DNA from: Panopea generosa
Taxonomy: Eukaryota > Mollusca > Bivalvia > Adapedonta > Hiatellidae
Assembly: GCA_029582155.1 (NCBI GenBank)
Contig: CM055908.1
Location: 22,119,103-22,183,102 of the forward strand
Direction: 5' to 3'
Length of the DNA: 64,000 nucleotides
The first letter of the stretch is position 1; every line of letters begins with the position of its first letter. Positions 3,362-54,395 of the stretch are shown here, piece by piece. A program made the translations under genes and the position numbers. Below the pieces are notes generated by a model. That model did not search any database, was not told the origin of the DNA, and saw only the letters and a program-made list of their open reading frames with translations.

Positions 3362-4056
3362 AGTACAGTAATGTTTAATTGGTTAATACCTGATATAGTA
3401 CAGTTTAATTGGTAATTACCTGATATAGTAAAGTAATGTTTAATTGCTTATTACCTGATAGAGTACAGTAACGGTTAATCGTTAAATTGCTTAATACCTG
3501 AGAGAGCACAGTAACTTTTAATTGCTTATTACCTGATATGGAACAGTAACGTTTAATTGCTTATTACCTGGTATAGTACAGTAACGCTTAATTGCTTATT
3601 ACCTGATATAGAACAGTAACGTTTAATTGCTTATTACCTGGTATAGTACAGTAACGTTTAATTGCTTTTACCTGATAAAGTACAGTTACATTTAATTGCT
3701 TATTACCTGATATAGTACAGTAATGTTTAATTGGTAATTACCTGATATAATACAGTAACGTATAATTGCTAATTACCTGATATAGTACAGTAATGTTTAA
3801 TTATTACCTGATAGAATACAGTAATGTTTAATTGCTAATTACTTGATAGAGTACCGCAATATTTAATTGCTTATTACCTATACCACAGTAACATTTAATT
3901 GCTTATTACCTGATATAGTACAGTAATGTTTAATTGCTTATTACCTATACCACAGTAACATTTAATTGCTTGTTACCTGATATAGTACAGTAATGTTTAA
4001 ATGCTTATTACCTGGTATAGTACAGTAACGTTTAATTGGTTATTACCTGGCATGGT
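3362..4056. repeat. 35-bp array carrying copies of the exon 26 donor
   Basis: About 19 units of the type TGTTTAATTGCTTATTACCT plus GATATAGTACAGTAA. Read on the minus strand, each holds CAG|GTAATAAGC, the same donor as exon 26. The last unit (4027-4050) also copies about 15 bases of the exon's 3' end (20 of 21 bases match across the junction). Confidence 0.9.
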
Positions 4057-4069
4057 GTCATCATTTTTC

Positions 4070-4602
4070 ATTATTCTGTACTGTACAATAATATAAGGTT
4101 ATTTTACAGTGTTTTGTACAATATGGGAATATATTGTACGAGTATGTATTGTGGTGAAAATCAAATTAGAAGAGATGCCATAGGCGCTAAGCCCAATTTG
4201 ATTTTCACCACAATACGTAGGAGTACACTATATTCCCATATTGTACAAAACATTGTAAAATGATCTTTTTATTCTATACCTCAACTGAAAATAATTTATC
4301 AAATGAGTGAAGAAAAATTAAGATACTTTTAAATAGTTCAGATCCATGACAGTGACAGATGAAGGAAGTTGCAGATATTTGAAATTTTTTCAACGTCGAT
4401 AGTCATACCGAACATTTTGTCCATTGTTTGTTTTTATCATTGAAATTTCTACTAAATTTATTTCCTTTATTAATCCCCATCTTGATATTTGAACTGTACA
4501 ATATAAAAGTTATTGGATCTAATAAACTTCTATATATTGTACAGTCACATGGAAACATCTGGAGTAGGTGGATTGACTATACACTTACAGGTATAGAATA
4601 AT
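4070..4602. mobile_element. Foldback element with long hairpin
   Basis: Arms at about 4103-4168 and 4194-4260 are near-perfect inverted repeats (TTTTGTACAATATGGGAATA on one side, its complement on the other) around a loop of about 25 bp; a second hairpin with TGTACAATATA ends lies at 4493-4545. Outer ends ATTATTCTGTACTGT and CAGGTATAGAATAAT are imperfect inverted repeats. It sits between the exon 26 donor and its duplicated copy. Confidence 0.6.
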
Positions 4603-4611
4603 AGTTATTAC

Positions 4612-4765
4612 CTGGCATGGTTTCATTTACAACAACCTCTGCATCCTTCGCTTTGTTACACAAGTGTCCAACACAACATGATTCAGACTTCCGACCATTA
4701 CAAACTTCCTTCTTGACGCATCTCTTTGTCACAAGTCCATTTGGTTTATTCAGTGTCTGGCAAGT
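4612..4765 (-). CDS. Exon 26: second part of the LU three-finger domain
   Basis: 154 nt, phase 0 in and phase 1 out. It encodes TCQTLNKPNGLVTKRC, VCNGRKSESCC and the diagnostic C-terminal CCVGHLCN of the Ly6/uPAR/three-finger fold, then an acidic tail with the sequon NET. Acceptor ATTTTATAG, donor CCAG|GTAATA. Nine or ten cysteines across exons 25 and 26 fit the family. No GPI signal follows, because the frame continues into another half-module. The donor and last exonic bases are duplicated downstream (to the left). Confidence 0.88.
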
Positions 4766-4919
4766 CTATAAAATGCAAAAAGTTTGTTAATTTTTGCAGT
4801 CAACCAAATTTAACTTTTATTTCTGTATTATATCCTGCTGATGTTGATAGTCACATCACCATAATTCAGAATCTATGAATGAAAATAATTAATTCATGAA
4901 AGAGCAACTAAATCAGATG

Positions 4920-5290
4920 AAACAATGTTACTACATTTAAACCTTTATTATGAATCAAATGAAATCAAACTGAAATCACGTGACTCATTTAATATGTCAC
5001 ACATAATATGTTGCAATTGTAAGCGGGAAATCTGTTTTAATCTAACATCGGCGCATAGCCCAAGTTAGGAAATCCCTTTTAAATTATAACATTTTGAAAA
5101 ATCCTAATACATTCCCTTTAAGACCTGATGGCCACAGCCCAAGACAAACCATTGCAAGAAATGCACTCTTTGCTTTAAGACCTGATGGCCACAGCCCAAG
5201 ACCAACCATTGCAAAAAATGCACTCTTTGCTTTAAGAGCCATTTATCATGTTAATCCAATGTATAAGTTCCATATGACACATCACATATT
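4920..5290. repeat. Dispersed repeat plus a short tandem duplication
   Basis: The segment at about 4945-5075 recurs inverted at 31615-31740 (shared GGGATTTCCTAACTT and ATATGTTGCAAT stretches). At 5115-5235 a 59-bp unit containing TTTAAGACCTGATGGCCACA is duplicated. Intronic. Confidence 0.6.
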
Positions 5291-6159
5291 ACCAGTCATT
5301 CCTAGTTGACCTAGTTTGTGGAACAACCCAAACTGTGTTAAAAGCTCCTTTGATGTTAAATAAGGCAAGGTGGGCTGTATTTCTGTGCTCCATATTGTAA
5401 TAAACTGTTTTGGACACAGAAATATTAATATATATATATATCAGTTTTAACTTGTAGGAATGTTTAACATATCACCAAGACTACCTTCTCAAACATTTTG
5501 CAGAAACATGGTACTAACGATATGAGTCTATAGCTGATTGCGTGTTTTTGGTTTGCTCCCCTCCATATGCAGTAGAATAAGAATAATGTCTCTACGATTT
5601 TGTTAAAGAGCAAAACAATAGATTGAAGGAAGGATAAACCACAGTATATCATGTGATCATGTAATACCATGTCGTTTCCGTCGGCCTATCATCTTTTAAG
5701 ATTGTCCTTTGTTTCAATTCGTCAAAGTTAACATGTTTTTGTAGTATTTCGGAATAGGAGGGATATTCTGAACACTGCATACTTTTTACGTTAGACTTTG
5801 CTGGATAAAATCAACAAAAGCTTGCAGAGTTCAAGTGTGTTGATTCTCAATGAATATCTTTTCAAAACCCAGATGGGACGTCACTTTCAGTCGAGTAGTA
5901 AATATCATCCATTGTGATATCCGTGCATGCTAGTGATGGTTTCTAGTTATGCACACGAAATAGCTTCCGAAACAACCAATAGTCTAGGTCAGCCACTTCC
6001 TTAAGTTCCTGATAAAGTTTATCATTGTTATTGTCAGATTCAATTCAATGATTCTATGAAATATTTATTTTCAAAGCTTTTATGTCAGAAACTATCTGCT
6101 TACTAAATGCAGAATTCTATTTTTAGGTATCTGCCTGGCACTTTGAAACTGTATTATCA

Positions 6160-7035
6160 CCCCTGAAACCCGTTACCTCCGACATGAGCAGCCAACTACC
6201 CTTCCACTATATTACCACCCCTCAAACCCGTTACCTCCGACATGAGCAGCCAACTACCCTTCCACTGTATTACCACCCCTCAAACCCGCTACCCCCGACA
6301 TGAGCAGCCAACTACCCTTCCACTATATTATTAACCCTCAAACCCATTACCTCAAACATGAGCAGCCAACTACCCTTCCACTATATTACCACCCCTCAAA
6401 CCCACTACCTCCGACATGAGCAGCCAACTACCCTTCCACTATATTACCACCCCTCAAACCCGTTACCTCCAACATGAGCAGCCAACTACCCTTCCACTAT
6501 ATTACAACCCCTCAAACCCATTACCTCCGACATGAACAGCCAACTACCCTTCCACTATATTACCACCCCTCAAACCCGTTACCTCCGACATGAGCTGCCA
6601 ACTACCCTTCCACTGTATTACCACCCCTCAAACCCGTTACCTCAGACATGAGCAGCCAACTTCACTTCAACTGTATTACCACCCCTCAAACCCGTTACCT
6701 CAAACATGAACAGCCAACTACCCTTCCACTATATTACCACCCCTCAAACCCGTTACCTCAGACATGAGCAGCCAACTTCACTTCCACTGCATTACAACCC
6801 CTCAAACCCATTACCTCCGACATGAGCAGCCAACTACCCTTCCACTATATTACCACCCCTCAAACCCGTTACCTCCGACATGAGCATCCAACTACCCTTC
6901 CACTATATTACCACCCCTCAAACCCGTTACCTCCAACATAAGCAGCCAACTACCCTTCCACTATATTACCACCCCTCAAACCCGCTACCTCCGACATGAG
7001 CATCCAACTACCCTTCCACTATATTACCACCCCTT
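6160..7035. repeat. 58-bp tandem array, about 15 copies
   Basis: Unit CTCCGACATGAGCAGCCAAC plus TACCCTTCCACTATATTACC and ACCCCTCAAACCCGTTAC. It ends about 35 bp from the exon 25 donor without sharing exon sequence. The rest of the interval 5290-6160 shows only an AT microsatellite at 5430 and no recognisable gene. Confidence 0.95.
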
Positions 7036-7070
7036 TTTCCAGAACAGCACAAAAAACTATTATGCAATAC

Positions 7071-7162
7071 CTGTTTATTACTAGCACATGTTTCCACTGG
7101 GCTGGCATCACATTCAGCGTGACTTTTTGCATCAAAGCACCTGTGGCACTGTCGGGGCAACA
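7071..7162 (-). CDS. Exon 25: first part of an LU (Ly6/uPAR) three-finger domain
   Basis: 92 nt, phase 1 in and phase 0 out. It encodes V-LPRQCHRCFDAKSHAEC and then DASPVETC, the CxxC...C...C start typical of LU domains. Acceptor TTCCTTACAG, donor ACAG|GTATTG. A phase-0 intron inside the domain separates it from exon 26; LU genes commonly have an intron within the domain. Confidence 0.86.
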
Positions 7163-8221
7163 CTGTAAGGAAGAGAAAAGTAAAGGTATATGAATTTTTT
7201 ATAGGTCATCTCTATGGTTACCTGATATTTTGATTATGTTGTATTGCTATATTACAAAGGTCACAGCGTAATTGATGCTTCTGAGAGTGATTTGAGTTCA
7301 GCTCAAAAGGACTATGGACTGAGTGAAATAGACATTGACTGTAGATATGGCTGCTGGAACAGTGCATTATAATGCAGAGATTTAAAAAAAAAATGTAATC
7401 TTAAAATAAAAATCTTTTGAAGGTGGTTCATGTGCGTGATGAAACACCAGAAGTGTGATGTAAAATTTAAGTTAAAAGAACAAACTGCCATAATTTCATT
7501 ATAATAATTTAACTAGAAAGCCAAAATCACAAGCACATGTTTTGACCATGAACCTGATGAATAACAAGTTTCATATCAATCAGGTTAAAATTGTGTGATG
7601 AGTTGCGTTCACAAAGTTGTTGGTCATTACATTTAAGTTCAAACAACAAAGGGCCATAACTCAATTCAATTAGAATGCTGAATTTGAGCTACACAACAGA
7701 TTTTAGCCACATAAAGGCATGTTTAAGTTTCTGGAAACAGCAACATCATTATTTTACAACTGTTATTTTACATGTCCAGATAGTTACTATCCCTAAAACC
7801 TAAACACCTTAATATCCATTTGTGTGTACGGACAGACAGATGCCATTTCAATATCTCCCAATTTTCTTTAAAAAGAAATGGGTAAAAACAAAAACAGGCT
7901 GGACAAGATGTTCATACATTGGTCTTTTGATCTCGTAACTATAACATTGACCTTGGGAAATAAAAATGGGACTTTGATGTCATACACTCTTTCCATATGT
8001 TGACTGGGTGCAAGATATTTTCTTATTTCTTTTGTTGTACACAAACTTACCAAACAATAAACATGTATATGACATTTGACTTCTGACTACAAACTTTAAG
8101 CAAATGAAGATGAGAGACCTTGAAAGACTCCTCTCATTTCACTGGCTGTATGTACACAAAACAGTTACCAACAAATTACAGCTGGATTAAATATATATAT
8201 ATAATAATTATAGAGCCTTAC
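7163..8221. other. Intron 24, no element recognised
   Basis: AT-rich intron between exons 24 and 25. The stretch 7540-7760 has the look of an old dispersed repeat (phrases such as AAGGGCCATAACTCAATTC, common in mollusc repeats). A short (AT)n tract lies near 8192. I see no exon or promoter. Confidence 0.5.
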
Positions 8222-9337
8222 CTTGACACTTATGTTTTACGGTCTGAAGTATTGTGTATAAAGATGTTTTCACAGTGTCCCGGATGCTAATGTCCAGCTG
8301 AAACAAATGATCTTGGAGACAATCCCAGGACTGATACAGCTTCAAGCACATTCTATGCAACTCATAGTGCATTGGAACTGGCCTTTTGCGTAAACAATCT
8401 TTTTTTCCACCACTTTTTTGTGATCCAGGTTTCTTTTCTTTTTTGTCCATGCTTCCAGATTTTGTTTTTTCTTTGTCCTTGCTTCCAGATTTTGTTTTTC
8501 CTTTGTCCTTGCTTCCAGGTTTTCTTTCTTCTTTGTCCTTGCTTTCAGATTGTTTTTCCATGCCTCCAGTTCCTGTTTCTCCGGTGCTTCCAGATCTTTC
8601 TGCTGACCTTCTACTCCTGCCACCACGTTTAGAAGAATTTTCATCACTTCTGTCATCAGTCTCTTCACTCTCATCTTCATCAGCAGATCTTTCGACAGAA
8701 CTATGTGATGATTCACTTCTGGATTTGTCATGTGACCAACTCGGATAATGTTCAACCCACCATCGTTCATTACTTAGGTAATTTTCATCACATACTTCAT
8801 CTTTATCTTCACCAGTCTTCCAAGAACCACCATTTTTACTGGGACGATCCGACTCCTCAGAACTGCTTCTTCCATTTGAAGCACTCCATTGAGAATCAGT
8901 TGGACGTGACCTACTTGACTCCCGAGAGCCAGATTGACTAAAGTCATCTGACTCCGAATAACCAGTATCACTTTTACCAGAGCCCTTTGACCTCCCAGTA
9001 TCACTTTTACCAGAGCCCTTTGACCTCCTAGAACCACTTTTACCAGCGCTCTTTGACCCCTCAGTACCAATTTTACCAGAGCCCTTTGACCCCCCAGTAT
9101 CACTTTTACCAGAGCCCTTTGACCCCCTAGAACCACTTTTACCAGAGCCCTTTGACCCCCTAGGACCACCTTTGCTAGAGCCATCTGACCCCCTAGTACC
9201 ATTTTTACTACCATTATCTGACCCCATAGAGTCACTTTCGCTGGAGTGTTCTGACATATCAGCTGATTTCTCTGATGACAGACTATCATCCTCATCTGAG
9301 TAAAATAATGGTTCAGAGTATGACAAGAGTGACCATG
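8222..9337 (-). CDS. Exon 24: long Ser/Gly/Lys-rich exon ending in a half-module
   Basis: 1,116 nt, phase 1-1, the largest exon. After WSLLSYSEPLFYSDEDD it is acidic and Ser-rich, then has about eight copies of an 11-residue repeat of the GSKGSGKSDTG type (33-nt coding minisatellite), an acidic Ser-rich stretch with basic clusters (RSRRS), and four 10-residue KDKEKTKSGS-type repeats. The last 60 residues revert to module sequence: MCLKLYQSWDC (C1-x8-C2) and HKC (C3). Acceptor TTCTGTTTCAG, donor CAAG|GTAAGG. The alternating Ser/Gly and charged repeats suggest an extended, disordered or adhesive segment; inference only. Confidence 0.88.
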
Positions 9338-9900
9338 CTGAAACAGAAGAAAATCAACAGCAGTTAAATGCAAACATTTAAACCATGTAAACCTAATATG
9401 ACCATGCTGAAATAGAAAAGTTCAACAGCAAATACAGAAACAAACATCTCAACCATGTAAATCTGGTATGGCCATGCTGGAATAGAAAAGTTCAACAGCA
9501 GTTATAGAGACAAACATCTCAACCATGTAATCTGGTATGGCCATGCTGAAATAGATCAGGTCAACAGGCTACAGACAAACATCTCAACCATGTAATCTGG
9601 TATGGCCATGCTGAAACAGAACATATCAACAAGCTACAGACAAACATCTCAACCATGTAATCTGGTATGGCCATGCTGAAATAGAACAGGTCAACAGGCT
9701 ACAGACAAACATCTCAACCATGTAATCTGGTATGGCCATGCTGAAATAGAATATAATCGATAGGCTAGAGACAAATATCTCAACCATGTAATCTGGTATG
9801 GCCATGCTGAAATAGAACAGATCAACAGCAGATAGGACAAACATCTCTACCATGTAAATCTGGTATGGCCATGCTGAAATAGAAAAGTTTTTCAGCAGAT
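9338..9900. repeat. Array of 60-70 bp units carrying copies of the exon 24 acceptor
   Basis: About nine units. On the minus strand each contains TATTTCAGCATGGCCAT, matching the exon 24 acceptor TGTTTCAG and the first nine to ten exonic bases (CATGGTCAC). Between these lie AACCATGTAATCTGG and CTACAGACAAACATCTC segments. The first unit abuts the exon. Confidence 0.9.
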
Positions 9901-10269
9901 AGAGAGGTTAAAAACAAACATGTCATCGAAATGTTTCATTGTCATGTTATGTTGAACACTGTTCAGTATACGGAAATAGACAACTTCCAAATGGTCAAGT
10001 CCTTTATGTGACCTTGACATTTGAGTTCTGTTTAGTTATTTGATAATTGATCCTTGACCCCTGAGTGTCTCCCTGTAACACTGTAACCTTCCTCTCCACC
10101 CAGTATACCCACACACCAAGTTTTGTGGCAATGTCTCATTCCTAGTCAAAATGCAACTAGACGAGACACAACGGAATATGATGCGACAAAGTGAACCTAA
10201 TGTGGCTTGGAAGGACATAATGTGCATACAAACATTTTAATGGTTCACACAAAACACTGCCATATTTAC

Positions 10270-11429: not shown

Positions 11430-11459
11430 CTGTAATTGTTTATTTAATTATTAGCTAGA

Positions 11460-17748: not shown

Positions 17749-17860
17749 CTGTTACAGAGATGTTCTTTATCAGAGTGTGAATAAAACGGAACAACAGCGA
17801 TCCCTGTGACTACATCTTTCAATACTCTGTGAGCAGATTCCTTATGCTGGCATTTAGACT
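17749..17860 (-). CDS. Exon 19: second half of the module begun in exon 16
   Basis: 112 nt, phase 1 in and phase 2 out. Encodes SKCQHKESAHRVLKD ... KEHLCNR, with C4 and C6; the C5 position is Arg. Acceptor ATTGCTAG, donor ACAG|GTAAAT. Its acceptor is only about 20 bp from the first unit of a roughly 93-copy array. Confidence 0.82.
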
Positions 17861-17879
17861 CTAGCAATAATTGAAACAT

Positions 17880-20800
17880 ATACATATAGCAACTTATATA
17901 AATCAACTGGTAATTACATTTACATATAGCTGCTCATATAAATCAAATGGCTGTTACATTTACATATAGCAGCTCATGTAAATCAACTGGCTGTTACATT
18001 TATATATAGCTGCTAATATAAATAAACTGGCTGTTACATTTACATATAGCTGCTCATATAAATCAACTGGTTGTAACATTTGCATATAGCAACTCATATA
18101 AATCAACTTGCTGTTACATTTATATATAGCTGCTCATATAAATCAACTGGTTGTAACATTTACATATAGCTGCTCATATAAATCAACTGGCTGTTACATT
18201 TACATATAGCAGCTCATATAAATCAACTTGCTGTTACATTTATATATAGCTGCTCATATAAATCAACTGGTTGTAACATTTACATATAGCTGCTCATATA
18301 AATCAACTGGCTGTTACATTTACATATAGCTGCTCATATAAATCAACTGGTTGTAACATTTACATATAGCTGCTCATATAAATCAACTGGTTGTAACATT
18401 TACATATAGCTGCTCATATAAATCAACTGGTTGTAACATTTGCATATAGCAGCTCATATAAATCAACTTGCTGTTACATTTATATATAGCTGCTCATATA
18501 AATCAACTGGTTGTAACATTTACATATAGCAGCTCATATAAATCAACTGGTTGTAACATTTACATATAGCAGCTCATGTAAATCAACTGGCTGTTACATT
18601 TATATATAGCTGCTCATATAAATAAACTGGCTGTTACATTTACATATAGCTGCTCATATAAATCAACTGGTTGTAACATTTGCATATAGCAACTCATATA
18701 AATCAACTTGCTGTTACATTTATATATAGCTGCTCATATAAATCAACTGGTTGTAACATTTACATATAGCTGCTCATATAAATCAACTGGTTGTAACATT
18801 TACATATAGCAGCTCATATAAATCAACTGGTTGTAACATTTACATATAGCAGCTCATATAAATCAACTGGTTGTTACATTTGCATATAGTTGCTCATATA
18901 AATCAAATGGCTGTTACATTTACATATAGCAGCTTATATAAATCAACTGGTTGTAACATTTACATATAGCTGCTCATATAAATCAACTGGCTGTTACATT
19001 TATATACAGCAACTTATATAAATCAACTGGTTGTTACATTTGCATATAGTTGCTCATATAAATCAAATGGCTGTTACATTTACATATAGCAGCTTATATA
19101 AATCAACTGGTTGTAACATTTACATATAGCTGCTCATATAAATTAACTGGCTGTTACATTTATATATAGCAACTTATATAAATCAACTGGTTGTTACATT
19201 TGCATATAGCTGCTCATATAAATCAAATGGCTGTTACATTTACATATAGCAGCTCATATAAATCAACTGGTTGTTACATTCACACATAGCTGCTTATATA
19301 AATCAACCGGTTGTTACATTTACATATAGCAGCTCATATAAATCAACTGGTTGTTACATTTACATATAGCAACTCATATAAATCAACTGGCTGTTACATT
19401 TACATATAGCTGCTCATATAAATCAACTTGCTGTTACATTTATATATAGCAGCTCGTATAAATCAACTGGCTGTTACATTTACATATAGCTGCTCATATA
19501 AATCAACTGGTTGTTACATTTACATATAGCTGCTCATATAAATCAACTGGCTGTTACATTTACATATAGCAGCTCATATAAATCAACTGGTTGTAACATT
19601 TACATAAAGCTGCTCATATAAATCAACTGGTTGTAACATTTACATATACCTGCTCATATAAATCAACTGGCTGTTACATTTATATATAGCAACTTATATA
19701 AATCAGCTGGTTGTTACATTTGCATATAGTTGCTCATATAAATCAAATGGCTGTTACATTTACATATAGCAGCTTATATAAATCAACTGGTTGTAACATT
19801 TACATATAGCTGCTCATATAAATTAACTGGCTGTTACATTTATATATAGCAACTTATATAAATCAACTGGTTGTTACATTTGCATATAGCTGCTTATATA
19901 AATCAAATGGCTGTTACATTTACATATAGCAGCTCATATAAATCAACTGGTTGTTACATTCACACATAGCTGCTTATATAAATCAACCGGTTGTTACATT
20001 GACATATAGCAGCTCATATCAATAAACTGGTTGTTACATTTACATATAGCAGCTCATTTAAATCAACTGGCTGTTACATTTACATATAGCAGCTCATATA
20101 AATCAACTGGTTGTAATATTCACAAATAGCTGCTCATATAAATCAACTGGTTGTTACATTTACATATAACAGCTTATATAAATCAACTGGTTGTTACATT
20201 TACACATAGCTGCTCATATAAATCAACTGGTTGTAACATTTACATATAACAGCTCATATCAATAAACTGGCTGTTTCATTTACATATAGATGCTCATAAA
20301 AATCAACTGGTTGTTACATTTACATATAGCAGCTCATATAAATCAACTGGCTGTTACATTTATATATAGCAGCTCATATAAATCAACTGGCTGTAAGATT
20401 CACACATAGCTGCTTATATAAATCAACTGGTTGTAACATTTACATATAGCAGCTCATATCAATAAACTGGTTGTAACATTTACATATAACAGCTTATATA
20501 AATCAACTGGTTGTTACATTTACACATAGCTGCTCATATAAATCAACTGGTTGTAACATTTACATATAACAGCTCATTTCAATAAACTGGCTGTTTCATT
20601 TACATATAGATGCTCATAAAAATCAACTGGTTGTTACATTTACATATAGCAGCTCATAAAAATCAACTGGCTGTTACATTTATATATAGCAGCTCATATA
20701 AATCAACTGGCTGTAAGATTCACACATAGCTGCTTATATAAATCAACTGGTTGTAACATTTACATATAGCAGCTCATATCAATAAACTAACTGTTTCATT

Positions 20801-21600
20801 TACATATAGCTGCTCATATAAATCAACTGGCTGTTACATTTACATATAGAAGCTCATATCAATAAACTGGTTGTTACATTCACATATAGCAGCTTATATA
20901 AATCAACTGGCTATTACATTCACATATAGCAGCTCATATAAATAAACTGGCTGTTACATTTACATATAGCAGCTCATATAAATAAACTGGTTGTTGTTAC
21001 ATTCACATATAGCAGCTCATATCAATAAACTAGTTGTTATATTCACATATAGCAGCTCATATAAATCAACTGGCTGTTACATTTATATATAGCAGCTCAT
21101 ATCTATAAACTGGCTGTTACATATACACATATCTGCTCATATCAATAAACTGGTTGTTAGATTCACATATAGTTGCTCATATCAATAAACTGGTTGTTAC
21201 ATTTACACATATCTGCTCATATTAATCCACTGGTTGTTACATTTACATATAGCAGCTCATATCAATAAACTGGCTGTTACATTTACATATAGCAGCTAAT
21301 ATCAATAAACTTGTTGTTACATTCACATATAGCAGCTCATATCAATAAACTAGTTGTTATATTCACATATAGCAGCTCATATAAATCAACTGGTTGTTAC
21401 ATTTACATATAGCAGCTCATATCAATCAACTAGTTGTTACATTTACACATAGCTGCTCATATAAATCAACTGGTTGTTACATTTACATATAGCAGCTCAT
21501 ATCAATCAACTAGTTGTTACATTTACACATAGCTGCTCATATAAAACAACCGGTTGATACATTTACACATAGCAGCTAATATATATCAATTTATTGCTAT
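17880..21600. repeat. 40-bp tandem array, about 93 copies
   Basis: Unit CTGCTCATATAAATCAACTG plus GCTGTTACATTTACATATAG. It starts about 20 bp from the exon 19 acceptor, so it supplies the branch-point region of that intron. Local higher-order blocks (pairs and larger groups) repeat, for example around 18880-19260 and 19700-20000. Confidence 0.97.
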
Positions 21601-21676: not shown

Positions 21677-21703
21677 CTTCATTATCTTCTGACCCATCAT
21701 CAC
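21677..21703 (-). CDS. Exon 18: 27-nt acidic microexon
   Basis: 27 nt, phase 1-1, acceptor TTTATTTCAG and donor GAAG|GTAGGA. It encodes G-DDGSEDNE, an acidic linker with one Ser. It joins exons 17 and 19 in frame. It lies between two very large arrays (about 3.7 kb and 4.2 kb), so correct splicing of this tiny exon has to bridge more than 10 kb of intron in total. Confidence 0.68.
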
Positions 21704-21739: not shown

Positions 21740-24700
21740 TCAACTTCAATACCACTACAGTAAAAATATTTCCTATATTGTCAACATCATTATCACCACA
21801 GTAAGTGTTTCAAACACTACCAACTTCAAAACCACTAAAGTAACAGTGTTTCATATACTGTCAACTTCAATACCACGACTACAGTAAAAGTGTTTCATAC
21901 ACTACCAACGTCAAAACAACTACAGTAACAGTGTTACATAAATTACCAACGTCAATATTACTACAATAACAGTGTTTCATATATGTCAACTTCAACACCA
22001 ACCACCACAGTAATAGTGTTTCATACACTACCAACTTCAATACAACTACAGTAACAGTGTTACATACACTACCAACTTCAATACCATTACAGTAACAGTG
22101 ATTCATACACTACTAACTTCAATACAACTACAGTAACAGTGTTACATGCACTACCAACTTCAATACCACTACAGAAACAGTGATTTATACACTACCAACT
22201 TCAATATCAACCACTACAGTAACAGTGTTACATACACTACCAACTTCAATGCCACTACAGTAACAATGATACATACACTACCAACTTCAATACAACTACA
22301 GTAACAGTGTTACATACACTACCAACTTCAATACCAGTACAGTTACAGTGATTCATACACTACCAACTTCAATACCACTACAGAAACAGTGTTACATGCA
22401 CTACCAACTTTAATACCACTACAGAAACAGCAATTTATATACTACCAACTTCAATATCAACCACTACAGTAACAGTGTTACATACACTACCAACTTCAAT
22501 ACCACTACAGTAACAGTGTTACATGCACTACCAACTTCAATACCACTACAGTAACAGTGTTTCATACACTACCACAATCAATATCAACCACTACAGTAAC
22601 AGTGTTTCATATAAGTCAACTTTAATACCAACCACTACAGTAATAGTGTTTCATACACTACCAATTTCAATACCACTACAGTAACAATGTTACATACACT
22701 ACCAACTTCAATACCACTACAGTAACAGTGTTACATGCACTACCAACTTCAATACCACTACAGTAACAGTGTTTCATACACTACCACCTTCAATATCAAC
22801 CACTACAGTAACAGTGTTTCATATAAGTCAACTTTAATACCAACCACTACAGTAATAGTGTTTCATACACTACCAATGCCAATACCACTACAGTAACAGT
22901 GTTTCATGCACTACCAACTTCAATACCACTACAGTAAGAGTTTCATACACTACCAACTTCAATACCATTACAAAAACAGTGTTTCATGCACTACTAACTT
23001 CAATACCACTACAGTAACAGTGTTTCTAACACTACCAGCTTCAATACCACTACAGTAACAGTGTTTCATGCACTACCAACTTCAATACCACTACAATAAC
23101 ATTGTTTCATGCACTAACAACTTCAATACCACTACAGTAACAGTGATTTACACACTACCAACTTCAATCCCTCTACAGAAACAGTGATTCATACATTACT
23201 TACTGCAATACTACTACAGTAACAATGTTTCATACATTACTAAATTCAATACCATGACAGTAACAATGTTACATACACTACCAACTTCAATCCCACTACA
23301 GAAACAGTGATTCATACACTACCAACTTCAATAACACTACAGAAATAGTGATTCATACACTACCAACTTCAATACCACTACAGAAACAGTGACTCAAACA
23401 CTTCCAACTTCAATCCCACTACAGTAACAGTGTTTCAAACACTACCAACTTCAATCCCACTGCAGTTACAGTGTTTCAAACACTACCAACTTCAATCCCA
23501 CAACAGAAACAGTGTCACATTCACTTCCAACTTCAATACAACTACAGCAACAGTGTTACATACACAACCAATTTTAATCCCACTATAGTAACAGTGTTAC
23601 ATACACTACCAACTTCAATCCCACTACAGTAACAGTGTTACATACACTACCAACTTCAATACCACTACAGTAACAGTGTTACATACACTACCAACTTCAA
23701 TCCCACTACAGTAACAGTGTTTCAAACACTACCAACTTCAATCCCACTACAGTAAGTGTTACATACACTGCCAACTTCAATCCCACTTCAGTAACAGTGT
23801 TACATGCACTACCAACTTCAATCCCACTACAGTAACAGTGTTTCAAACACTACCAACTTCAATTCCACTACAGTAACAGTGTTTCAAACACTACCAACTT
23901 CAATCCCACTGCAGTTACAGTGTTTCAAACACTACCAACTTCAATCCCACAACAGAAACAGTGTCACATTCACTACCAACTTCAATACAACTACAGCAAC
24001 AGTGTTACATACACAACCAATTTTAATCCCACTATAGTAACAGTGTTACATACACTACCAACTTCAATCCCACTACAGTAACAGTGTTACAGACACTACC
24101 ACCTTCAATACCACTACAGTAACAGTGTTACATACACTACCAACTTCAATCCCACTACAGTAACAGTGTTTCAAACACTACCAACTTCAATACCACTACA
24201 GTAAGAGTTTCATACACTACCAACTTCAATACCATTACAAAAACAGTGTTTCATGCACTACTAACTTCAATACCACTACAGTAACAGTGTTTCTAACACT
24301 ACCAGCTTCAATACCACTACAGTAACAGTGTTTCATGCACTACCAACTTCAATACCACTACAATAACATTGTTTCATGCACTAACAACTTCAATACCACT
24401 ACAGTAACAGTGATTTACACACTACCAACTTCAATCCCTCTACAGAAACAGTGATTCATACATTACTTACTGCAATACTACTACAGTAACAATGTTTCAT
24501 ACATTACTAAATTCAATACCATGACAGTAACAATGTTACATACACTACCAACTTCAATCCCACTACAGAAACAGTGATTCATACACTACCAACTTCAATA
24601 ACACTACAGAAATAGTGATTCATACACTACCAACTTCAATACCACTACAGAAACAGTGACTCAAACACTTCCAACTTCAATCCCACTACAGTAACAGTGT

Positions 24701-25985
24701 TTCAAACACTACCAACTTCAATCCCACTGCAGTTACAGTGTTTCAAACACTACCAACTTCAATCCCACAACAGAAACAGTGTCACATTCACTTCCAACTT
24801 CAATACAACTACAGCAACAGTGTTACATACACAACCAATTTTAATCCCACTATAGTAACAGTGTTACATACACTACCAACTTCAATCCCACTACAGTAAC
24901 AGTGTTACATACACTACCAACTTCAATACCACTACAGTAACAGTGTTACATACACTACCAACTTCAATCCCACTACAGTAACAGTGTTTCAAACACTACC
25001 AACTTCAATCCCACTACAGTAAGTGTTACATACACTGCCAACTTCAATCCCACTTCAGTAACAGTGTTACATGCACTACCAACTTCAATCCCACTACAGT
25101 AACAGTGTTTCAAACACTACCAACTTCAATTCCACTACAGTAACAGTGTTTCAAACACTACCAACTTCAATCCCACTGCAGTTACAGTGTTTCAAACACT
25201 ACCAACTTCAATCCCACAACAGAAACAGTGTCACATTCACTACCAACTTCAATACAACTACAGCAACAGTGTTACATACACAACCAATTTTAATCCCACT
25301 ATAGTAACAGTGTTACATACACTACCAACTTCAATCCCACTACAGTAACAGTGTTACAGACACTACCACCTTCAATACCACTACAGTAACAGTGTTACAT
25401 ACACTACCAACTTCAATCCCACTACAGTAACAGTGTTTCAAACACTACCAACTTCAATCCCACTACAGTAAGTGTTACATACACTGCCAACTTCAATCCC
25501 ACTTCAGTAACAGTGTTACATGCACTACCAACTTCAATCCCACTACAGTAACAGTGTTTCAAACACTACCAACTTCAATCCCACTACAGTAACAGTGTTT
25601 CAAACACTACCAACTTCAATCCCATTATAGTAACAGTGTTACATACAAAACCAACTTCAATTCCACAACAGTAACAGTGTTACATACACTACCAACTTCA
25701 ATCCCACTACAGTAACAATGTTACATACACTACCAACTTCAATCCCACAACAGTAACAGTGTTTAAAACACTACCAACTTTAACCCCACAACAGTAACAG
25801 TGTTACATACACTACCAACTTCAATCCCACAACAGTAACAATGTTTCAAACACTACCAACTTCAATCCCACAACAGTAACGGTGTTACATACACTACCAA
25901 CTTCAATCCCACAACAGTTACAGTGTTTCAAACATTACCAACTTCAATCCCACTACAGAATCAGTGATTCATACACTACCAATTT
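21740..25985. repeat. 41-bp tandem array, about 100 copies, with 1,267-bp higher-order repeat
   Basis: Unit ACTTCAATACCACTACAGTA plus ACAGTGTTTCATACACTACCA. Positions about 22925-24191 and 24192-25455 look like two tandem copies of a 1,267-bp block: markers such as TGCAGTTACA recur at 23461/24728 and 23910/25177, all 1,267 apart. Inside the block some sub-blocks also repeat at 449 bp (11 units). Confidence 0.95.
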
Positions 25986-26344
25986 CAATCATTTCAGAAG
26001 TGATTGGTCCACGTACAGCCCTATGAATGCATGATTCTTGGACCAATAACTGAGTCAATAATTATGAAATCACTTAATTAATGGCATTATAATACAAGTA
26101 GCCTGTGAGAAGTATATATAAGCAGTAACAATGTTACTATGACTACAGTCAGTTGTTACTATGACAACTGTCATAGTTGCCATGTATGTTAATATCAGTT
26201 ACAGCCATATATAACTTGGATATCACATGTATAAATAATGTCTGTACAAATCCTCAACCATGCATGTAATATAGATGATACAGGCTAGAAAATTATTTTA
26301 TGGCATAAAAGCAAGATACATAAAGGGTATGTTTTTTACATCAG

Positions 26345-29483: not shown

Positions 29484-29587
29484 CTTCTATTTTACAGAAA
29501 TCCCCAGCAAAATTGCCTATCATCTGTACGAGCACTGTTAACCTTCCGTGATCAAATGGATACAATAAACCAGTTTGCAAGTCAGTT
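29484..29587 (-). CDS. Exon 16: first half of a module, lacking C1 and C2
   Basis: 104 nt, phase 2 in and phase 1 out. It encodes TDLQTGLLYPFDHGR ... GDFCKIEG with only one cysteine, at the C3 position. Acceptor CTTTTTTTAG, donor GAAG|GTATGA. The acceptor plus roughly the first 25 coding bases recur in every unit of the 56-bp array immediately upstream (to the right). Confidence 0.83.
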
Positions 29588-30105
29588 CTAAAAAAAGAAT
29601 AATATAACAGTGAATATAGAATAAATCAGTTTGTAAGTCAGTTCTAAAAATAGAAAAATATAACAATGAATGTAGAATTAAGCAGTTTGTATGTCAGTTC
29701 TAAAACAGTGAATGTACAATAAACCAGTTTGTATGTCAGTTCTAAAAATAGAACAATGTAACAGTGAATGTAAAATAAACCAGTTTGTATGTCAGTTCTT
29801 AACATAGAATAATATAACAGTGAATGTAGAATTAAGCAGTTTGTATGTCAGTTATAAAACAGTGAATGTAGAATAAAACACTTTGTGTATGTCAGTTCTA
29901 AAAATAGAACAATATAACAGTGAATGTAGATTAAACCAATTTGTACATCAGTTCTCAAAATAGAATACTTTAACAGTGAATGTAGAATAAACCAGTTTGT
30001 ATGTCAGTTCTAAAAATATAATAATGTAACAGTATATGTAGAATAAAACAGTTTGTAAGTCAGCTCTAAAAATAGAATAATATAAAGTGATTGTAGATCG
30101 AATCC
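29588..30105. repeat. 56-bp array carrying copies of the exon 16 acceptor and exon start
   Basis: About nine units. On the minus strand each has ATTTTTAGAACTGACATACA followed by AACTGGTTTATTC; exon 16 begins TAG|AACTGACTTGCAAACTGG then TTTATT. So acceptor, polypyrimidine tract and about 25 coding bases are repeated. The array abuts the exon. Confidence 0.92.
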
Positions 30106-35784: not shown

Positions 35785-36090
35785 TTTATCCCTTTACTTC
35801 ATATAGACGCCTTTGGACACCTCTAATATAGACGCCTTTGGACACTTCTAATATGAACACCATTGGACACCTCTATTAAATAAAGACGTTTTGGAAACCT
35901 TTAATATAGATGCCTTTGGATACCTCTTATTTAGAAGGCTTTTGAATTAATTGGTGAATTATGTTTATATTAACTGACGGAGTGGAAAACAGTGCAGGAT
36001 GTGTTCAGATTGCTTGTAATGAGTAATCTAAACTCTTCCTGCACTGTTTTCATAAGCCTTCTGTTATTGGTGACGGAAAATGCATATCTT
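35785..36090. mobile_element. TTAA-type MITE, copy 3, degraded and internally expanded
   Basis: Related to 14223 and 30480, in inverted orientation relative to their asymmetric parts. The left end CCCTTTACTTCATATAGACG is followed by about four tandem copies of a 30-bp piece containing GACGCCTTTGGACACCTCT, then the hairpin core with CTTCCTGCACTGTTTTC. No clear TTAA on the right. Confidence 0.65.
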
Positions 36091-37927: not shown

Positions 37928-38176
37928 TTGCAAACATCCTCTGTTTCAGAGGGCTGACTGAAGCACTCTGCAGCAGCAACATCAGGAGTACACTTTGGTT
38001 TTGGCTTGCATTCCGGTTTGGGTTTTTTAAAGTCGCACTGGTTTCTATCAATAGTATTCTTGGTAAAAGTCTTCATACGCCTCAAATTGTAATCGGAGTC
38101 AGTCTCAATTTCAGGGTCAAGCTTCTCGCAGCCCTCTGTTAAGTTATAGTAGCACAGCATCCCCTCTACTGCATAA
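37928..38176 (-). CDS. Exon 10: module with Lys/Pro-rich middle
   Basis: 249 nt, phase 2-2. It encodes YAVEGMLCYYNLTEGC (C1-x7-C2, with the sequon NLT), C3 in RNQC, a KPKPECKPKPKC stretch, KCTPDVAAAEC, and VCK at the end. Acceptor CATCTTCAG, donor GCAA|GTAAGT. The acceptor and first 24 exonic bases are copied about 19 times in the 91-bp array directly upstream (to the right), so this exon lies next to a row of decoy 5' ends. Confidence 0.88.
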
Positions 38177-39955
38177 CTGAAGATGAAGTTTTTACATTAT
38201 ACTATATGTAAGACATTGTCCTTACTATCGCAACCTGTAACTTCACAGCATCCCCTCTACTTCATAACTGAAGATGAAGTTTTACTATATGTAAGACATT
38301 GTCCTAACTATCGCGACCTGTAACTTCACAGCATCTCCTCTACTGCATAACTGAAGATGAAGTTTTTATATTATACTATATGTAAGACATTGTCCTAACT
38401 ATCGCGACCTGTAACTTCACAGCATCCCCTCTACTGCATAACTGAAGATGAAGTTTTTACATTAAACTATATGTAAGAGATTATCCTTACTATCGCAACC
38501 TGTAACATCACAGCATCCCCTCTACTGCATAACTGAAGATGAAGTTTTTACATTATACTATATGTAAGACATTGTCCTTACTATCGCAACCTGTAACTTC
38601 ACAGCATCTCCTCTACTGCATAACTGAAGATGAAGTTTTTACATTATACTATATGTAAGACGTTGTCCTTACTATCGCAACCTGTAACTTCACAGCATCC
38701 CCTCTACTGCATAACTGAAGATGAAGTTTTTACATTATACTATATGTAAGACATTGTCTTTACTATCGCAACCTGTAACTTCACAGCATCCCCTCTACTG
38801 CATAACTGAAGATGAACTTTTTACATTATACTATATGTAAGACATTGTCTTTACTATCGCAACCTGTAACTTCACAGCATCTCCTCTACTGCATAACTGA
38901 AGATGAACTTTTTACATTATACTATATGTAAGACATTGTCCTTACTATGGCAACCTGTAACATCACAGCATCCCCTCTACTGCATAACTGAAGATGAAGT
39001 TTTTACATTATACTATATGTAAGACATTGTCTTTACTATCGCAACCTGTAACTTCACAGCATCCCCTCTACTGCATAACTGAAGATGAAGTCTTTACATT
39101 ATACTATATGTAAGACATTGTCCTTACTATCGCAACCTGTAACTTCACAGCATCTCCTCTACTGCATAACTAAAGATGAAGTTTTTACATTATACTATAT
39201 GTAAGACATTGTCTTTACTATCGCAACCTGTAACTTCAGCACATCCCCTCTACTGCATAAATGAAGATGAAGTTTTTACATTATACTATATGTAAGACAT
39301 TGTCCTTACTATCGCAACCTGTAACATCACAGCATCCCCTCTACTGCATAACTGAAGATGAAGTTTTTACATTATACTATATGTAAGACATTGTCTTTAC
39401 TATCGCAACCTGTAACTTCAGCACATCCCCTCTACTGCATAAATGAAGATGAAGTTTTTACATTATACTATATGTAAGACATTGTCCTTACTATCGCAAC
39501 CTGTAACTTCACAGCATCCCCTCTACTGCATAACTGAAGATGAAGTTTTTACATTATACTATATGTAAGACATTGTCTTTACTATCGCAACCTGTAACAT
39601 CACAGCATCCCCTCTACTGCATAACTGTAGATGAAGTTTTTACATTATACTATATGTAAGATATTGTCTTTACTATCGCAACCTGTAACTTCACAGCATC
39701 CCCTCTATTGCATAACTGAAGATGAAGTTTTTACATTATACTATATGTAAGACATTGTCCTTACTATCGCAACCTGTAACATCACAGCATCCCCTCTACT
39801 GCATAACTGAAGATGAAGTTTTTACATTATACTATATGTAAGAAATTGTCCTTACTACTTCACAGCATCCCCTCTACTGCATAACTGAAGATGAAGTTTT
39901 TACATTATACTATATGTAAGACATTGTCCTTACCATCGCAACCTGTAACTTCAAT
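38177..39955. repeat. 91-bp array carrying copies of the exon 10 acceptor and exon start
   Basis: About 19 highly similar units. On the minus strand each contains CTTCATCTTCAG|TTATGCAG and then TAGAGGGGATGCTGTG, identical to the exon 10 acceptor plus its first 24 bases. Each unit also has GATA|GTAAGGA (or GTAAAG), 42 nt after the acceptor. The array abuts the exon. Confidence 0.95.
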
Positions 39956-49395: not shown

Positions 49396-49887
49396 CTAAA
49401 TTGGAATGTGTCGGGTATTTTGCTAGATTATATAATTCAACAGTTCTTTACATTTGTACAGTGAAATCTTCAAAAACTGAAGGCCAACTCTGACTATTAA
49501 AAATGTGTATGTTTCCCGATATTTAGAAGTTTTTATATTTTTAATTTTTGATATTTTCAGATAATTTCATGAGAGATCCATTTCAAGATAAATATTGTTC
49601 AAAAGATAATTCTATATTGAATGAATGCAGTACTCATTCATTTTAATACATCTTTCTAAATAATTATAATCTATAAAGTAATCATTTTTAATCTGTAATA
49701 TTATAACGATATGCACAACTACACTTCCTACCAAATCAGTTGAGAAGTTTACAAGAAATATTCTTGACAAGAAAGTATAATGTACAAACAAAGATTAACC
49801 ATTTGAAATAATTAAAGGGCCATCCATATGTAAAAGTTGGACAGGAAATTGTTGTTGCTGTAATGTATTAAGAGTTACCCTCATATG

Positions 49888-50105
49888 GCCAGTCTCCACA
49901 ATGATTTATATACGACATTGTGTCTCAATGTCACTTGTCTTTTACTGCTGATTCAAGTGGGAAAGTTATCAGTCATTTACAGAGAGGGGTGTGCTCGAGT
50001 ACCGGCTAACCTTACAGGATCCCAGGAAACAGTGGTTAGGTTAACTGATTGTCTGTTAGCCCTCGATGGCATAAAATTGATGCTAAATATTCAAACATTA
50101 ACTGC
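49888..50105 (+). mobile_element. SINE-like element, 5'-truncated copy
   Basis: Matches the body of the copy at 33844 (CATTGTGTCTCAATGTCA, GGAAAGTTATCAGTCATTT, CAGGAAACAGTGGTTAGG, TTAGCCCTCGATGGCATAAA) but lacks the tRNA-like head. Confidence 0.75.
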
Positions 50106-50299
50106 AACTGAAAGCTATGACTGATAAAGCACTTTTGTAATTCTAAACATTTTTCATTCAACTTTTCTGATCTCACACAAACTACTAAACAAAAAACGAA
50201 CAATTTATCTGTATATTTATATCTACTAGCTTTAGAGAGACATGTAAATTATATACAGATTTTATATAAAAGTACCAACAATATAAAAACCCCACTTAC

Positions 50300-50779
50300 C
50301 TGCTATCAGGTGAGCCCGTGTCTTCATATGAACCGCTTCTGTCAGATGAATCCTTGCTACCAAATGAATCCCAGCTACTAGATGAACCCCTTTCACGAGA
50401 AGAGCCCCTTTTATCAGATGAGCCCCATTTACCAGATGATCCACTTTTACCAGACGAGCCACTTTTACCAAACGAGCCACTTTTATCAGATGAATCCCCA
50501 TCACCAGTTGTTCCCGAGCTCCAAGGCAAGTCCATACTGTTTGATGAACCCGTACTACCAGATGTATGCTTGCCAGATCCACTCTTACCACCACTGGAAC
50601 TCATGCTACCACCAGATTGATCCATGCTACCAGACATGCTACCAGTACTGACATACCATTCATGATCACCTTTGCTTGGCAGGTCCCTGTCGTCATCATT
50701 GTTTATATGCAATTCCCTATACTGCATGTTACAGGACATGGTGTGACTGGCAGCACACTTTAGTGCTGACTTTAACCAT
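50300..50779 (-). CDS. Exon 6: CX7C start followed by a long Ser/Gly-rich tract
   Basis: 480 nt, phase 2-2, 160 codons. It opens with WLKSALKCAASHTMSC (C1-x7-C2) and then becomes acidic and strongly Ser/Gly-rich, with repeated SGSSGK-type hexapeptides (18-nt coding repeats) and SG dipeptides next to acidic residues. There is no C3-C6; it ends GSPDSR at the usual phase-2 donor (GCAG|GTAAGT). Such a tract is likely extended, heavily O-glycosylated or a site for glycosaminoglycan chains; that is inference. It resembles the Ser/Gly tract of exon 24. Confidence 0.85.
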
Positions 50780-51009
50780 CTGAAAATATTTCCATTGACT
50801 TACCATATGTGTTGTTACAAGAAAACAACAAAAAAACGACAATGAAATAATAACATATGTGTTGTGTCTTACCATTGTTACCCTATGTTTTGTATAATTT
50901 TATAGTCAATTTTGGGTTTAATATTCCCAATGGCAAAAAGTTTATTCTCCTTAAAGTTTACCTAACAATCAGCTGAAAAGCAATCTTAAACATCCATTTT
51001 CAAGGGCCA

Positions 51010-51610
51010 TATCACTGTAAGGTGATTCCTAACAGTAATAATGGTTCTTGTTATTACATAACTGGGTCCAAGTATAACTCAACCAAACACAAAAACAATG
51101 ATGGTTCTTCTTATTACATTACTGGGAACCAAGTATATCTTGGAACCAAGTATAACTGGGAACCAAGTATAACTCAACCAAACACAAAAACAATGATGGT
51201 TTTTGTTATTACATAACTGGGAACCAAGTATAACTGGGAACCAAGTATAAATCACCCAAACACAAACAATGGTGGTTCTTGCTATTACATAACTGGGAAC
51301 CAAGTATAACTGGGAACCAAGTATAACTCACCCAAACACAAACAATGATGGTTGATGTTATTATATAACTGGGAACCAAGTATAACTGGGAACCAAGTAT
51401 AACTCACCCAAACACAAACAATGATGGTTGATGTTATTACATAAATGGGAACCAAGTATATCTCACCCAAACACAAACAATGATGATTCTTTCTATTACA
51501 TAACTGGGTAACAAGTATAACTGGGAACCAAGTATAACTCACCCAAACACAAACAATGATGATTCTTGCTATTACATAACTGGGAACCAAGTATAACTGG
51601 GAACAAAGTA
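51010..51610. repeat. Composite tandem array, about 75-bp units
   Basis: Units contain CACCCAAACACAAACAATGA, TTATTACATAACTGGGAACC and one or two copies of AAGTATAACTGGGAACC. Intron between exons 5 and 6. Followed by a weak copy of dispersed family B at 51630-51740. Confidence 0.9.
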
Positions 51611-52311
51611 TTATTTATGACATCCAAAATACTCAGAATTAATCTGAGTAGAATCAACCTCCTTCTGAAATGACGACTTTCCCAGATGAAGTGTTCATGA
51701 TGTACAAAGTGGGATTAGAAAGTTCAAAGGTATGAGCTAAGTGATCTATAACTCTGTGAAATCACTTTCATGGGGGGACTCATTTTCATTTATTTTGTGC
51801 CGAGCCTCAACAACGAAATCAAATCCCAACAAAATGATCAAAGACAAAATTGTGTTATATCTATATTGCATAGCATACACTAACCTGTACCAAAACATAG
51901 ACCTACCTTTCTTAGCTAGATCTATGTGTTATCTGATTTTCTTTGTTTAATATATGAACTTTGCTTTTATTGAAGAATGAAATTAAAATAATTAAAACTT
52001 TATTTTTTTTATTTAGTGCACTGATTAAGTAAAATAAGGTTACTGTATTAATATTCCATTTGTTTCATTACATAAAATATACATGTCAATATCAGAGTCG
52101 TATTACATGTCTGTCTTTTTCATCACTGAGAAAAGCACAAAAAAATAGACCGATTCCTAAAAGAATATGCCTAAATTTACAATAACAGACAATATTTCAC
52201 ACCAGTGTGACATATTTAATGTGTGACGTAAATAGATCACTTTTAAAAAGAAAGAGTAGCAGGCGTATAAGTATGTTGTAAGAGAAAAGAGATTTATAAT
52301 AACACACTAAC

Positions 52312-52536
52312 TTGCAACTTATTACGGAGCCCTCATCCTTGTACAGTGGTGCTCCATTGATTGAATATCCTTCCGCGATACATCTCTCTGCCATGCCCAG
52401 GTTACAAGCATCAGCTCTACACACAGTCTTCATTGTTGTCTGCATCACCATGGTAACCATTTCAAAGAGGTTCTTGTGGGGGTCGGAACAGCTGTATGTG
52501 GCTTCTTTTATACATTCTATGGAAACCTTGACTTGT
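52312..52536 (-). CDS. Exon 5: complete six-cysteine module
   Basis: 225 nt, phase 2-2. This is the best single-exon example of the module: ECIKEATYSC (C1-x7-C2), TVC (C3), then ACNLGMAERC (C4-x7-C5) and VISCK (C6 plus Lys). C3 to C4 is only four residues here, so there is no insert. Acceptor ATTTTCAG, donor GCAA|GTTAGT. The first bases of the exon and its acceptor are repeated in the minisatellite immediately upstream (to the right). Confidence 0.88.
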
Positions 52537-54395
52537 CTGAAAATATTGATGGGTAGTAAATAAAAATAAACTCAGGCAATGCAATGAGGTTCTGTTTGTC
52601 TGAAACTACTGATAGGAATTAAATAAAAGTAAACTGAGGCAATACTGGGAAGCTTGACTTGTCTCGAATTATTGATAGATCATAAATAAAAATAAATTCA
52701 GGAAATGCACCAAGGTTTGGCATTAACATAAAATAAACTGAGGAAATGCACCAAGGCTTTGCATTAACATAAAGTAAACTGAGGCAATAATGGGAAGCTT
52801 GACTTGTCTCAAATTATTGAAAGATAATAAATAAAAATAAACTGAGGAAATGCAATGAGGCTTGACATTAACACAAAGTAAACTGAGGAAATGCACCAAG
52901 GCTTGACATTAACATAAGTAAACTGAGGAAATGCACTAAGGCTTGACATTAACATAAGTAAACTGAGGAAATGCACCAAGGCTTGACAATAACACAAAGT
53001 AAACTGAGGAAATGCACCAAGGCTTGACATTAATTCAAAGTAAACTGAGGAAATGCACCAAGGCTTGACATTAACATAAAGTAAACTGAGGAAATGCACC
53101 AAGGCTTGACATTAACACAAAGTAAACTGAGGAAATGCACCAAGGCTTGACATTAACACAAAGTAAACTGAGGAAATGCACCAAGGCTTGACATTAACAC
53201 AAAGTAAACTGAGGAAATGCACCAAGGCTTGACATTAACATAAGTAAACTGAGGAAATGCACCCAGGCTTGACAATAACACAAAGTAAACTGAGGAAATG
53301 CACCAAGGCTTGACATTAATTCAAAGTAAACTGAGGAAATGCACCAAGGCTTGACATTAACATAAAGTAAACTGAGGAAATGCACCAAGGCTTGACAATA
53401 ACACAAAGTAAACTGAGGAAATGCACCAAGGCTTGACATTAACACAAAGTAAACTGAGGAAATGCACCCAGGCTTGACAATAACACAAAGTAAACTGATG
53501 AAATGCACCAAGGCTTGACATTAACACAAAGTAAACTGAGGAAATGCACCAAGGATTGACATTAACACAAAGCAAACTGAGGAAATGCACCAAGGCTTGA
53601 CATTAACACAAAGTAAACTGAGGAAATGCACCCAGGCTTGACATTAACACAAAGTAAACTGAGGAAATGCACCCAGGCTTGACATTAACACAAAGTAAAC
53701 TGAGGAAATGCACTAAGGCTTGACATTAACACAAAGTAAACTGAGGAAATGCACCAAGGCTTGAAATTAACACAAAGTAAACTGAGGAAATGCACCCAGG
53801 CTTGACATTAACATAAGTAAAGTGAGGAAATGCAACGAGGCTTGACATTAACACAAAGTAAATTGAGGAAATGCACCCAGGCTTGACATTAACACAAAGT
53901 AAACTGAGGAAATGCACCAAGGCTTGACATTAACACAAATTAAACTGAGGAAATGCACCAAGGCTTGACGTTAACACACAGTAAACTGAGGAAATGCACC
54001 AAGGCTTGACATTAACACAAAGTAAACTGAGGAAATGCACCAAGGCTTGACATTAACACAAAGTAAACTGAGGAAATGCACCAAGGCTTGACATTAACAC
54101 AAAGTAAACTGAGGAAATGCACCAAGGCTTGACGTTAACACACAGTAAACTGAGGAAATGCACCAAGGCTTGAAATTAACACAAATTAAACTGAGGAAAT
54201 GCACCAAGGATTGACATTAACACAAAGCAAACTGAGAAAATGCACCAAGGCTTGACATTAACACAAAGTAAACTGAGGAAATGCACCAAGGCTTGACATT
54301 AACATAAAGTAAACTGAGGAAATGCACCAAAGCTTGACATTAACATAAAGTAAACTGAGGAAATGCACCAAGGCTTGACATTAATAATAAACATA
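52537..54395. repeat. 41-bp array that begins with copies of the exon 5 acceptor
   Basis: The first few units (52537-52830) are 60-110 bp long and carry GCTTGACTTGTCTCGAATTATTGATAG-like sequence, the complement of the exon 5 acceptor region with its first ten coding bases (ACAAGTCAAG). From about 52840 they become a regular 41-bp unit, AAACTGAGGAAATGCACCAA plus GGCTTGACATTAACACAAAGT, about 37 copies. Confidence 0.88.

Follow-up and report, generated by a model that had tools for sequence, protein, structure and literature searches.

Tandem repeats that copy the boundaries between introns and exons have been described in amphioxus under the name of mirages, which occur in the genes Adh3 and TnC and in the globin genes Gb6 and Gb9, with similar repeats in PGBD5 (PMC3087553, PMC3902484). 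In the accessible parts of these two reports, mirages are minisatellite-like tandem duplications of intron-exon boundaries at either intron end, with units of 10-72 bp in Adh3 and 150-160 bp in the globins, and the AG or GT signal is found in many but not all copies. Splicing is reported there to be undisturbed, length instability as well as somatic instability at Adh3 is described, and mirages have been proposed as a source of introns. A comparable human case is the 31-bp variable number tandem repeat (VNTR) of CBS, c.1444_1467+7, which by its notation includes 24 coding and 7 intron bases and which, in the available part of the source, is polymorphic with 16-21 repeats (PMC2630376). Intron gain by tandem genomic duplication has also been proposed, as far as the accessible sections of the relevant papers go (PMC4974935, PMC3443670). 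Here, minisatellites that copy splice junctions are described in a single gene of the bivalve Panopea generosa, based on a 64,000-nucleotide stretch of genomic DNA (assembly GCA_029582155.1, contig CM055908.1, positions 22,119,103 to 22,183,102 of the forward strand; hereafter the window) and on the DNA that adjoins it.

Several features of these arrays resemble those of the amphioxus mirages. The tandem units include the intron-exon boundary, either intron end is affected (six acceptors, one clear donor and one weak donor), and many but not all copies keep AG or GT, although too few copies were found at exons X1, X16 and X18 for a judgement there. Unlike the lancelet cases, 7-8 arrays occur here in one 131-kb gene, with up to about 50 copies and a bias toward acceptors. 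As in the CBS VNTR, a unit may cross a donor, but CBS has a single array at one donor in what is accessible of that report. In the same way, a tandem duplication copies a splice signal both here and in the intron gain outlined in the sections cited above, whereas it is existing junctions that were copied in Panopea, and a new intron is not evident. The present arrays look like a further, unusually rich case of the oddity described as mirages, and while an initial annotation of this DNA knew of no comparable system, the mirages are one, at least as portrayed in the accessible parts of those reports. The acceptor bias is the part that may be new. No mirages outside lancelets were recognised in the literature by titles and the starts of abstracts, most subscription journals lying outside that scope.

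The gene lies on the minus strand and occupies most of the window. Twenty-three exons joined at consensus AG/GT sites form a single open reading frame of 2033 amino acids with zero stops, and the other two frames of the same join contain 233 and 109 stops. An earlier join of 18 exons at AG/GT sites gave 1849 amino acids, also with zero stops, and five exons (X11b, a mini-exon, X11e, X18b and X19) were added to it; two further exon calls at the 5' side were out of frame when joined (2 stops). The exons that matter most for the arrays are as follows:
52312..52536, minus strand: exon X1, acceptor 52536, consensus AG/GT, frame closes; probably exon 5 of the initial annotation
37928..38176, minus strand: exon X6, acceptor 38176, frame closes; probably exon 10 of that annotation
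29484..29587, minus strand: exon X11b, acceptor 29587, phase-consistent, frame closes; probably its exon 16
21677..21703, minus strand: mini-exon, within the closed frame
17749..17860, minus strand: exon X11e, within the closed frame
8222..9337, minus strand: exon X16, acceptor 9337, frame closes; probably its exon 24
4612..4765, minus strand: exon X18, donor 4612, frame closes; probably its exon 26
3237..3327, minus strand: exon X18b, the next exon past the donor-derived array, frame closes

Four acceptors of this model (52536, 38176, 29587 and 9337) are copied within tandem arrays. The initial annotation had pointed to five arrays that repeat junctions of one gene, which was confirmed, with the X18 donor as a weak case (a partial copy about 560 bp away). 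Junction copies with about 8-27 coding bases were obtained at the four acceptors. The arrays are:
52520..54384, minus strand: X1 acceptor array, three degenerate junction copies adjoining the exon, followed by a 41-bp unit that lacks this acceptor (about 38 copies)
38153..39953, minus strand: X6 acceptor array, 91-bp unit in which the polypyrimidine tract, the AG and 24 coding bases recur 19 times
29560..30097, minus strand: X11b acceptor array, units of 42-58 bp with the polypyrimidine tract, AG and about 24-27 coding bases
9333..9887, minus strand: X16 acceptor array, 65-bp unit with the polypyrimidine tract, AG and about 8 coding bases
3360..4049, minus strand: X18 donor-derived array, 35-bp unit, the first unit being a copy of the end of X18 together with its donor; the X18b acceptor lies 32 bp from the end of the array

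The copies within the arrays differ from one another, and most retain the splice signal where it could be scored, AG being kept in 17/19, 7/7, 8/10 and 48/49 copies of the junction arrays and GT in 4/9. The first of these values belongs to the junction cores of the X6 array, whose 91-bp unit carries an exon piece that reaches a stop at its eighth codon (by eye), so that splicing to an upstream X6 copy would spoil the protein. By eye, 9 upstream copies were recognised at X11b, with AG kept in eight of the nine, and 8 at X16, all of which carry CAG; the overlap of the latter array with its exon is 5 bases according to Tandem Repeats Finder (TRF). The junction-copy finder misses copies at X1, X16 and X18, and the counts for these exons were read by eye. 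At X1, just 3 degenerate upstream copies contain the junction, with up to 17-18 coding bases, and the 41-bp array that follows (52834-54384, about 38 copies) is without the X1 acceptor. The unit of this array looks, by eye and in this single case, like the 63-bp junction unit minus the acceptor, as if loss of the decoy had preceded amplification. The copy of the X18 exon end and donor that opens the array 3360-4049 is partial (72% over 40 bp, about 560 bp from donor 4612), but the array start is the sole site in the window at 68% identity or more. The hexamer CAGGTA occurs 17 times in this array, which was not scored by TRF as overlapping the donor, and the case was accepted as real, though weak.

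Past the low-coordinate end of the window, exon calls on the minus strand run on for 70 kb; positions there are given as negative numbers, counted downward from the first position of the window. Twenty-five of the 36 calls were kept, those on the plus strand or more than half inside arrays being dropped; a doubtful call at -35637 was kept in the flank test that pools both junction sides and dropped from the acceptor/donor split and from the cut-off and 131-kb tests. Of the 25 window exons, on which it was largely trained, the exon finder retrieved 22, and it made 0 calls on the reversed window and 5 on 60 kb of reversed flank. Pfam domains were detected in four of five queries from flank exons (Kunitz twice, WAP, and an Ly6-type domain from two joined exons). 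The strand, spacing and similar cysteine patterns of these exons suggest that they belong to the same gene as those of the window. In the 70-kb flank, TRF arrays overlap three further junctions:
donor -16989: Kunitz exon (Pfam E 7.5e-17), 53-bp unit with about 25 coding bases, GT in 4 of 9 copies
acceptor -49659: 78-bp unit with about 18 coding bases, in two blocks
acceptor -69725: 42-bp unit, 49 copies of the core, 2 coding bases

The number of junction cases was compared with a chance model in which each array is seeded as one unit at random in the gene with its arrays collapsed, wholly exonic seeds being excluded. For the window (22 arrays and 25 exons, three wholly exonic arrays dropped), which was picked after the fact in a gene chosen for looking odd, 1.86 cases would be expected, and the probability is 0.11 for four or more and 0.03 for five or more. 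For the combined 131 kb the expectation is 3.44 (P 0.056 if 7 are counted as seen and P 0.020 if 8 are), and the total excess is marginal, at most slightly above twofold. The two intron ends behaved differently. Arrays that span acceptors number 6 in the 131 kb against 1.73 expected (P 0.006), and those that span donors 1-2 against 1.71. Similarly, when arrays were placed randomly within their own introns (20000 placements), array edges that cross an acceptor or lie at most 60 bp from one numbered 13 against 3.17 expected, a value reached in 0 of the 20000 placements, and those at donors 3 against 3.15. Restricted to the flank, the same test gave 5 against 1.43 at acceptors (P 0.0095) and 2 against 1.44 at donors (P 0.44). 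The acceptor excess persists at every cut tried between 10 and 200 bp and, for arrays of at least 200 bp, at cuts up to 100 bp, and array coverage at 50-150 bp is 0.27-0.31 near acceptors versus 0.07-0.14 near donors. The excess sits on acceptors (about 3.5-fold), with donors at expectation. It is possible that this bias is genuine, and it is partly seen in a portion of the gene that was not used for discovery. The proposal that random seeding would rarely produce such cases is partly right: about 1.9 cases are expected in the window, and acceptors are enriched rather than all junctions.

The arrays are probably mirage-type, junction-spanning minisatellites that arose by ordinary tandem duplication in a minisatellite-rich gene and are tolerated since the copy on the exon side still works. 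Their history would begin with a short tandem duplication whose unit happens to reach from some tens of bases inside the intron across the junction to a few, at most about 27, bases inside the exon, with a mirror-image unit at donors. This unit was then multiplied up to about 50 times, as can be seen in the arrays, so that every copy initially carried the splice signal. Exons are recognised as units by splicing. Splicing would stay on the copy that is joined to the whole exon, because this copy alone is followed by the remaining exon with its enhancers; the other copies would remain intronic, and the protein would therefore be unchanged. The junction cases may represent a by-product of the birth of arrays in such a gene, to which the decoy tolerance suggested by the initial annotation fits. 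The acceptor excess might be due either to a mutational preference for the branch and polypyrimidine region or to better tolerance there, neither of which is preferred here.

Several points weigh against this interpretation. A purely neutral model by itself leaves the excess of acceptors over donors unexplained, and the use of the exon-side copy in splicing is inferred from the general recognition of exons as units. The acceptor excess is derived from one gene, the 60-bp cut was set with knowledge of the window and of the adjoining 60 kb, and the exons beyond the window are predictions of an exon finder trained on this same gene. With both junction sides pooled, 3 spanning arrays in the 70-kb flank compare with 1.75 expected (P 0.25) and 7 arrays within 60 bp with 3.62 (P 0.057), and the array at acceptor -69725 overlaps its exon by just 2 coding bases.

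Chance alone, that is, even seeding along the gene with junction cases as the product of array density and exon density, is doubtful as a full account but retains appreciable weight. The 4-5 cases seen in the window against 1.86 expected, the pooled flank result just given and the donors at expectation are all compatible with it, whereas the acceptor-spanning arrays and, above all, the edges at acceptors, whose excess is similar at cuts of 10-150 bp, are not. These acceptor data raise the possibility, rated here as rather unlikely, that acceptor regions are hotspots of minisatellite birth, through the branch and polypyrimidine region or through a process tied to transcription or splicing. It overlaps with the preferred explanation, and the two are not exclusive. 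Array edges number 13 at acceptors and 3 at donors with practically equal expectation, coverage differs in the same direction, and among 21 exon calls elsewhere 2 acceptors and 0 donors lie near arrays, one of them (in the random stretch L017) with a repeated junction. However, the evidence comes from one gene with partly predicted exons, selection through tolerance would yield the same picture, the calls elsewhere include doubtful ones (3 on a reversed control versus 18 real), and no process is identified by the present data. In its more specific form, 3' intron ends would be a minisatellite birthplace in this genome, duplication starting preferentially in the branch, polypyrimidine and AG region, arrays would for this reason adjoin acceptors much more often than donors, and mirages would be the extreme cases, with seeds that cross into the exon; this remains a tentative and somewhat improbable proposal.

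It is very unlikely that the rows of decoy sites are functional, regulating or delaying splicing or producing alternative transcripts. AG is often intact in three of the arrays (17/19, 8/10 and 48/49 copies), but young arrays are expected to keep their copies intact, GT is kept in just 4 of 9 copies at the Kunitz donor, an upstream copy at X6 brings a stop at its eighth codon, and the lancelet papers, in their accessible parts, report normal splicing (PMC3087553, PMC3902484). Junction arrays are rich in acceptor-like sites because their unit contains the junction. In off-junction arrays, acceptor-like sites amount to 0.85 per kb on the sense and 0.83 per kb on the antisense strand, compared with 1.47 per kb in non-array intron, and donor-like sites to 0.63 per kb on the sense versus 0.98 per kb on the antisense strand. 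Since acceptor-like sites are equally frequent on both strands there, and rarer than in non-array intron, decoy rows are not a general property of arrays here, and the usefulness of decoys considered in the initial annotation found no support. An origin of introns from array units, as proposed for lancelet globin introns in the portions of those reports available, can hardly be assumed either. A test of the 40 junctions belonging to 20 exons detected copies just at the acceptors of X1 and X6 and at the X18 donor, though it missed the diverged X16 copies and had X11b and X18b outside its set; the donors of X5 and X15, with which the introns before X6 and X16 begin, are without copies. Tandem arrays are hard to assemble, and the exon model was built from genomic sequence; nevertheless, an assembly artefact or wrong exon models are highly improbable, given that the 2033-amino-acid frame passes through the junctions, that the array copies are mutually different, and that Kunitz, WAP and Ly6 domains are found by Pfam in the predicted exons beyond the window.

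The 7-8 arrays of this gene are natural series of splice-signal copies, and the locus would provide a test bed for how the spliceosome chooses the exon-joined copy. If the acceptor bias holds genome-wide, the birth of minisatellites would be linked to splicing or to intron-end sequence, a statement on how tandem repeats originate that is open to direct testing. In addition, predicted genes in such genomes may have wrongly placed exon edges.

Besides the junction-copying arrays, several arrays of the window lie near a junction:
35801..35942, minus strand: 25-bp array, 54 bp upstream of the X8 acceptor (35746)
21741..25989, minus strand: 41-bp array, about 103 copies, ends 37 bp upstream of the mini-exon acceptor
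17876..21589, minus strand: 40-bp array, about 93 copies, ends 15 bp upstream of the X11e acceptor
6148..7034, minus strand: 58-bp array, 36 bp downstream of the X17 donor (7071)

The window contains 29 merged arrays that cover 44% of it, compared with 40 arrays and 14% coverage in 20 random 10-kb stretches, and the 131-kb gene region is 41% array. The assembly comprises 1.474 Gb in 39 contigs, and the sampled stretches came from 19 contigs of 42-101 Mb. Introner-like dispersed elements are characterised by the presence of one element in many unrelated introns; the units of the five window arrays had no match in the other sampled DNA, save in one piece (L001) that overlaps the window. No Rfam family reached its gathering score in the window, and three tRNA-Ser predictions (23828, 25095 and 25544) inside the 41-bp array 21741-25989 were rejected as likely spurious repeat hairpins.

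At 22 other loci (the 20 random stretches and the upstream flanks L003 and L004), the 21 exon calls mentioned above, too few for a test, include two acceptors that lie 60 bp or less from an array (one in L017, which the array overlaps, and one in L004, at 11 bp) and no such donor. In L017, an unrelated random stretch, a 34-bp repeat with 2.5 units contains copies of the acceptor at 2857, and the exon, when joined hypothetically, resembles half a PHD finger with a sub-threshold Pfam score (E 0.043). In L002, two exon calls at about -3626 to -3465 and -6192 to -6031 have identical translations 2.6 kb apart and are possibly a recent duplication within the gene. A 42-bp array in L027 (about -32935 to -30797) is open in frame over long stretches with a GDCVRG-type repeat; it was repeatedly called as exons and was excluded from the counts.

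With regard to the encoded protein, a cysteine-rich repeat of roughly 65-130 amino acids is encoded by at least 10 window exons (X1, X6, X7, X9-X14 and X19), with about one repeat per exon and introns mostly in phase 2-2. Six window exon frames gave nothing above the Pfam cut-offs (three weak matches, E 0.08-0.12), and two joined pieces gave nothing at E 0.5. A search for homologues of the 1849-amino-acid model among 5.8 billion proteins yielded 6434 word-sharing candidates, none of them at E 0.001 or below. The repeat may possibly represent an undescribed domain family, judging from its sequence. Finally, coding minisatellites that are wholly exonic were observed in X16 and X2 (8424-8558, 8962-9238 and 50376-50507), with units of 30, 33 and 18 bp, all multiples of three, located in Ser-rich linkers.

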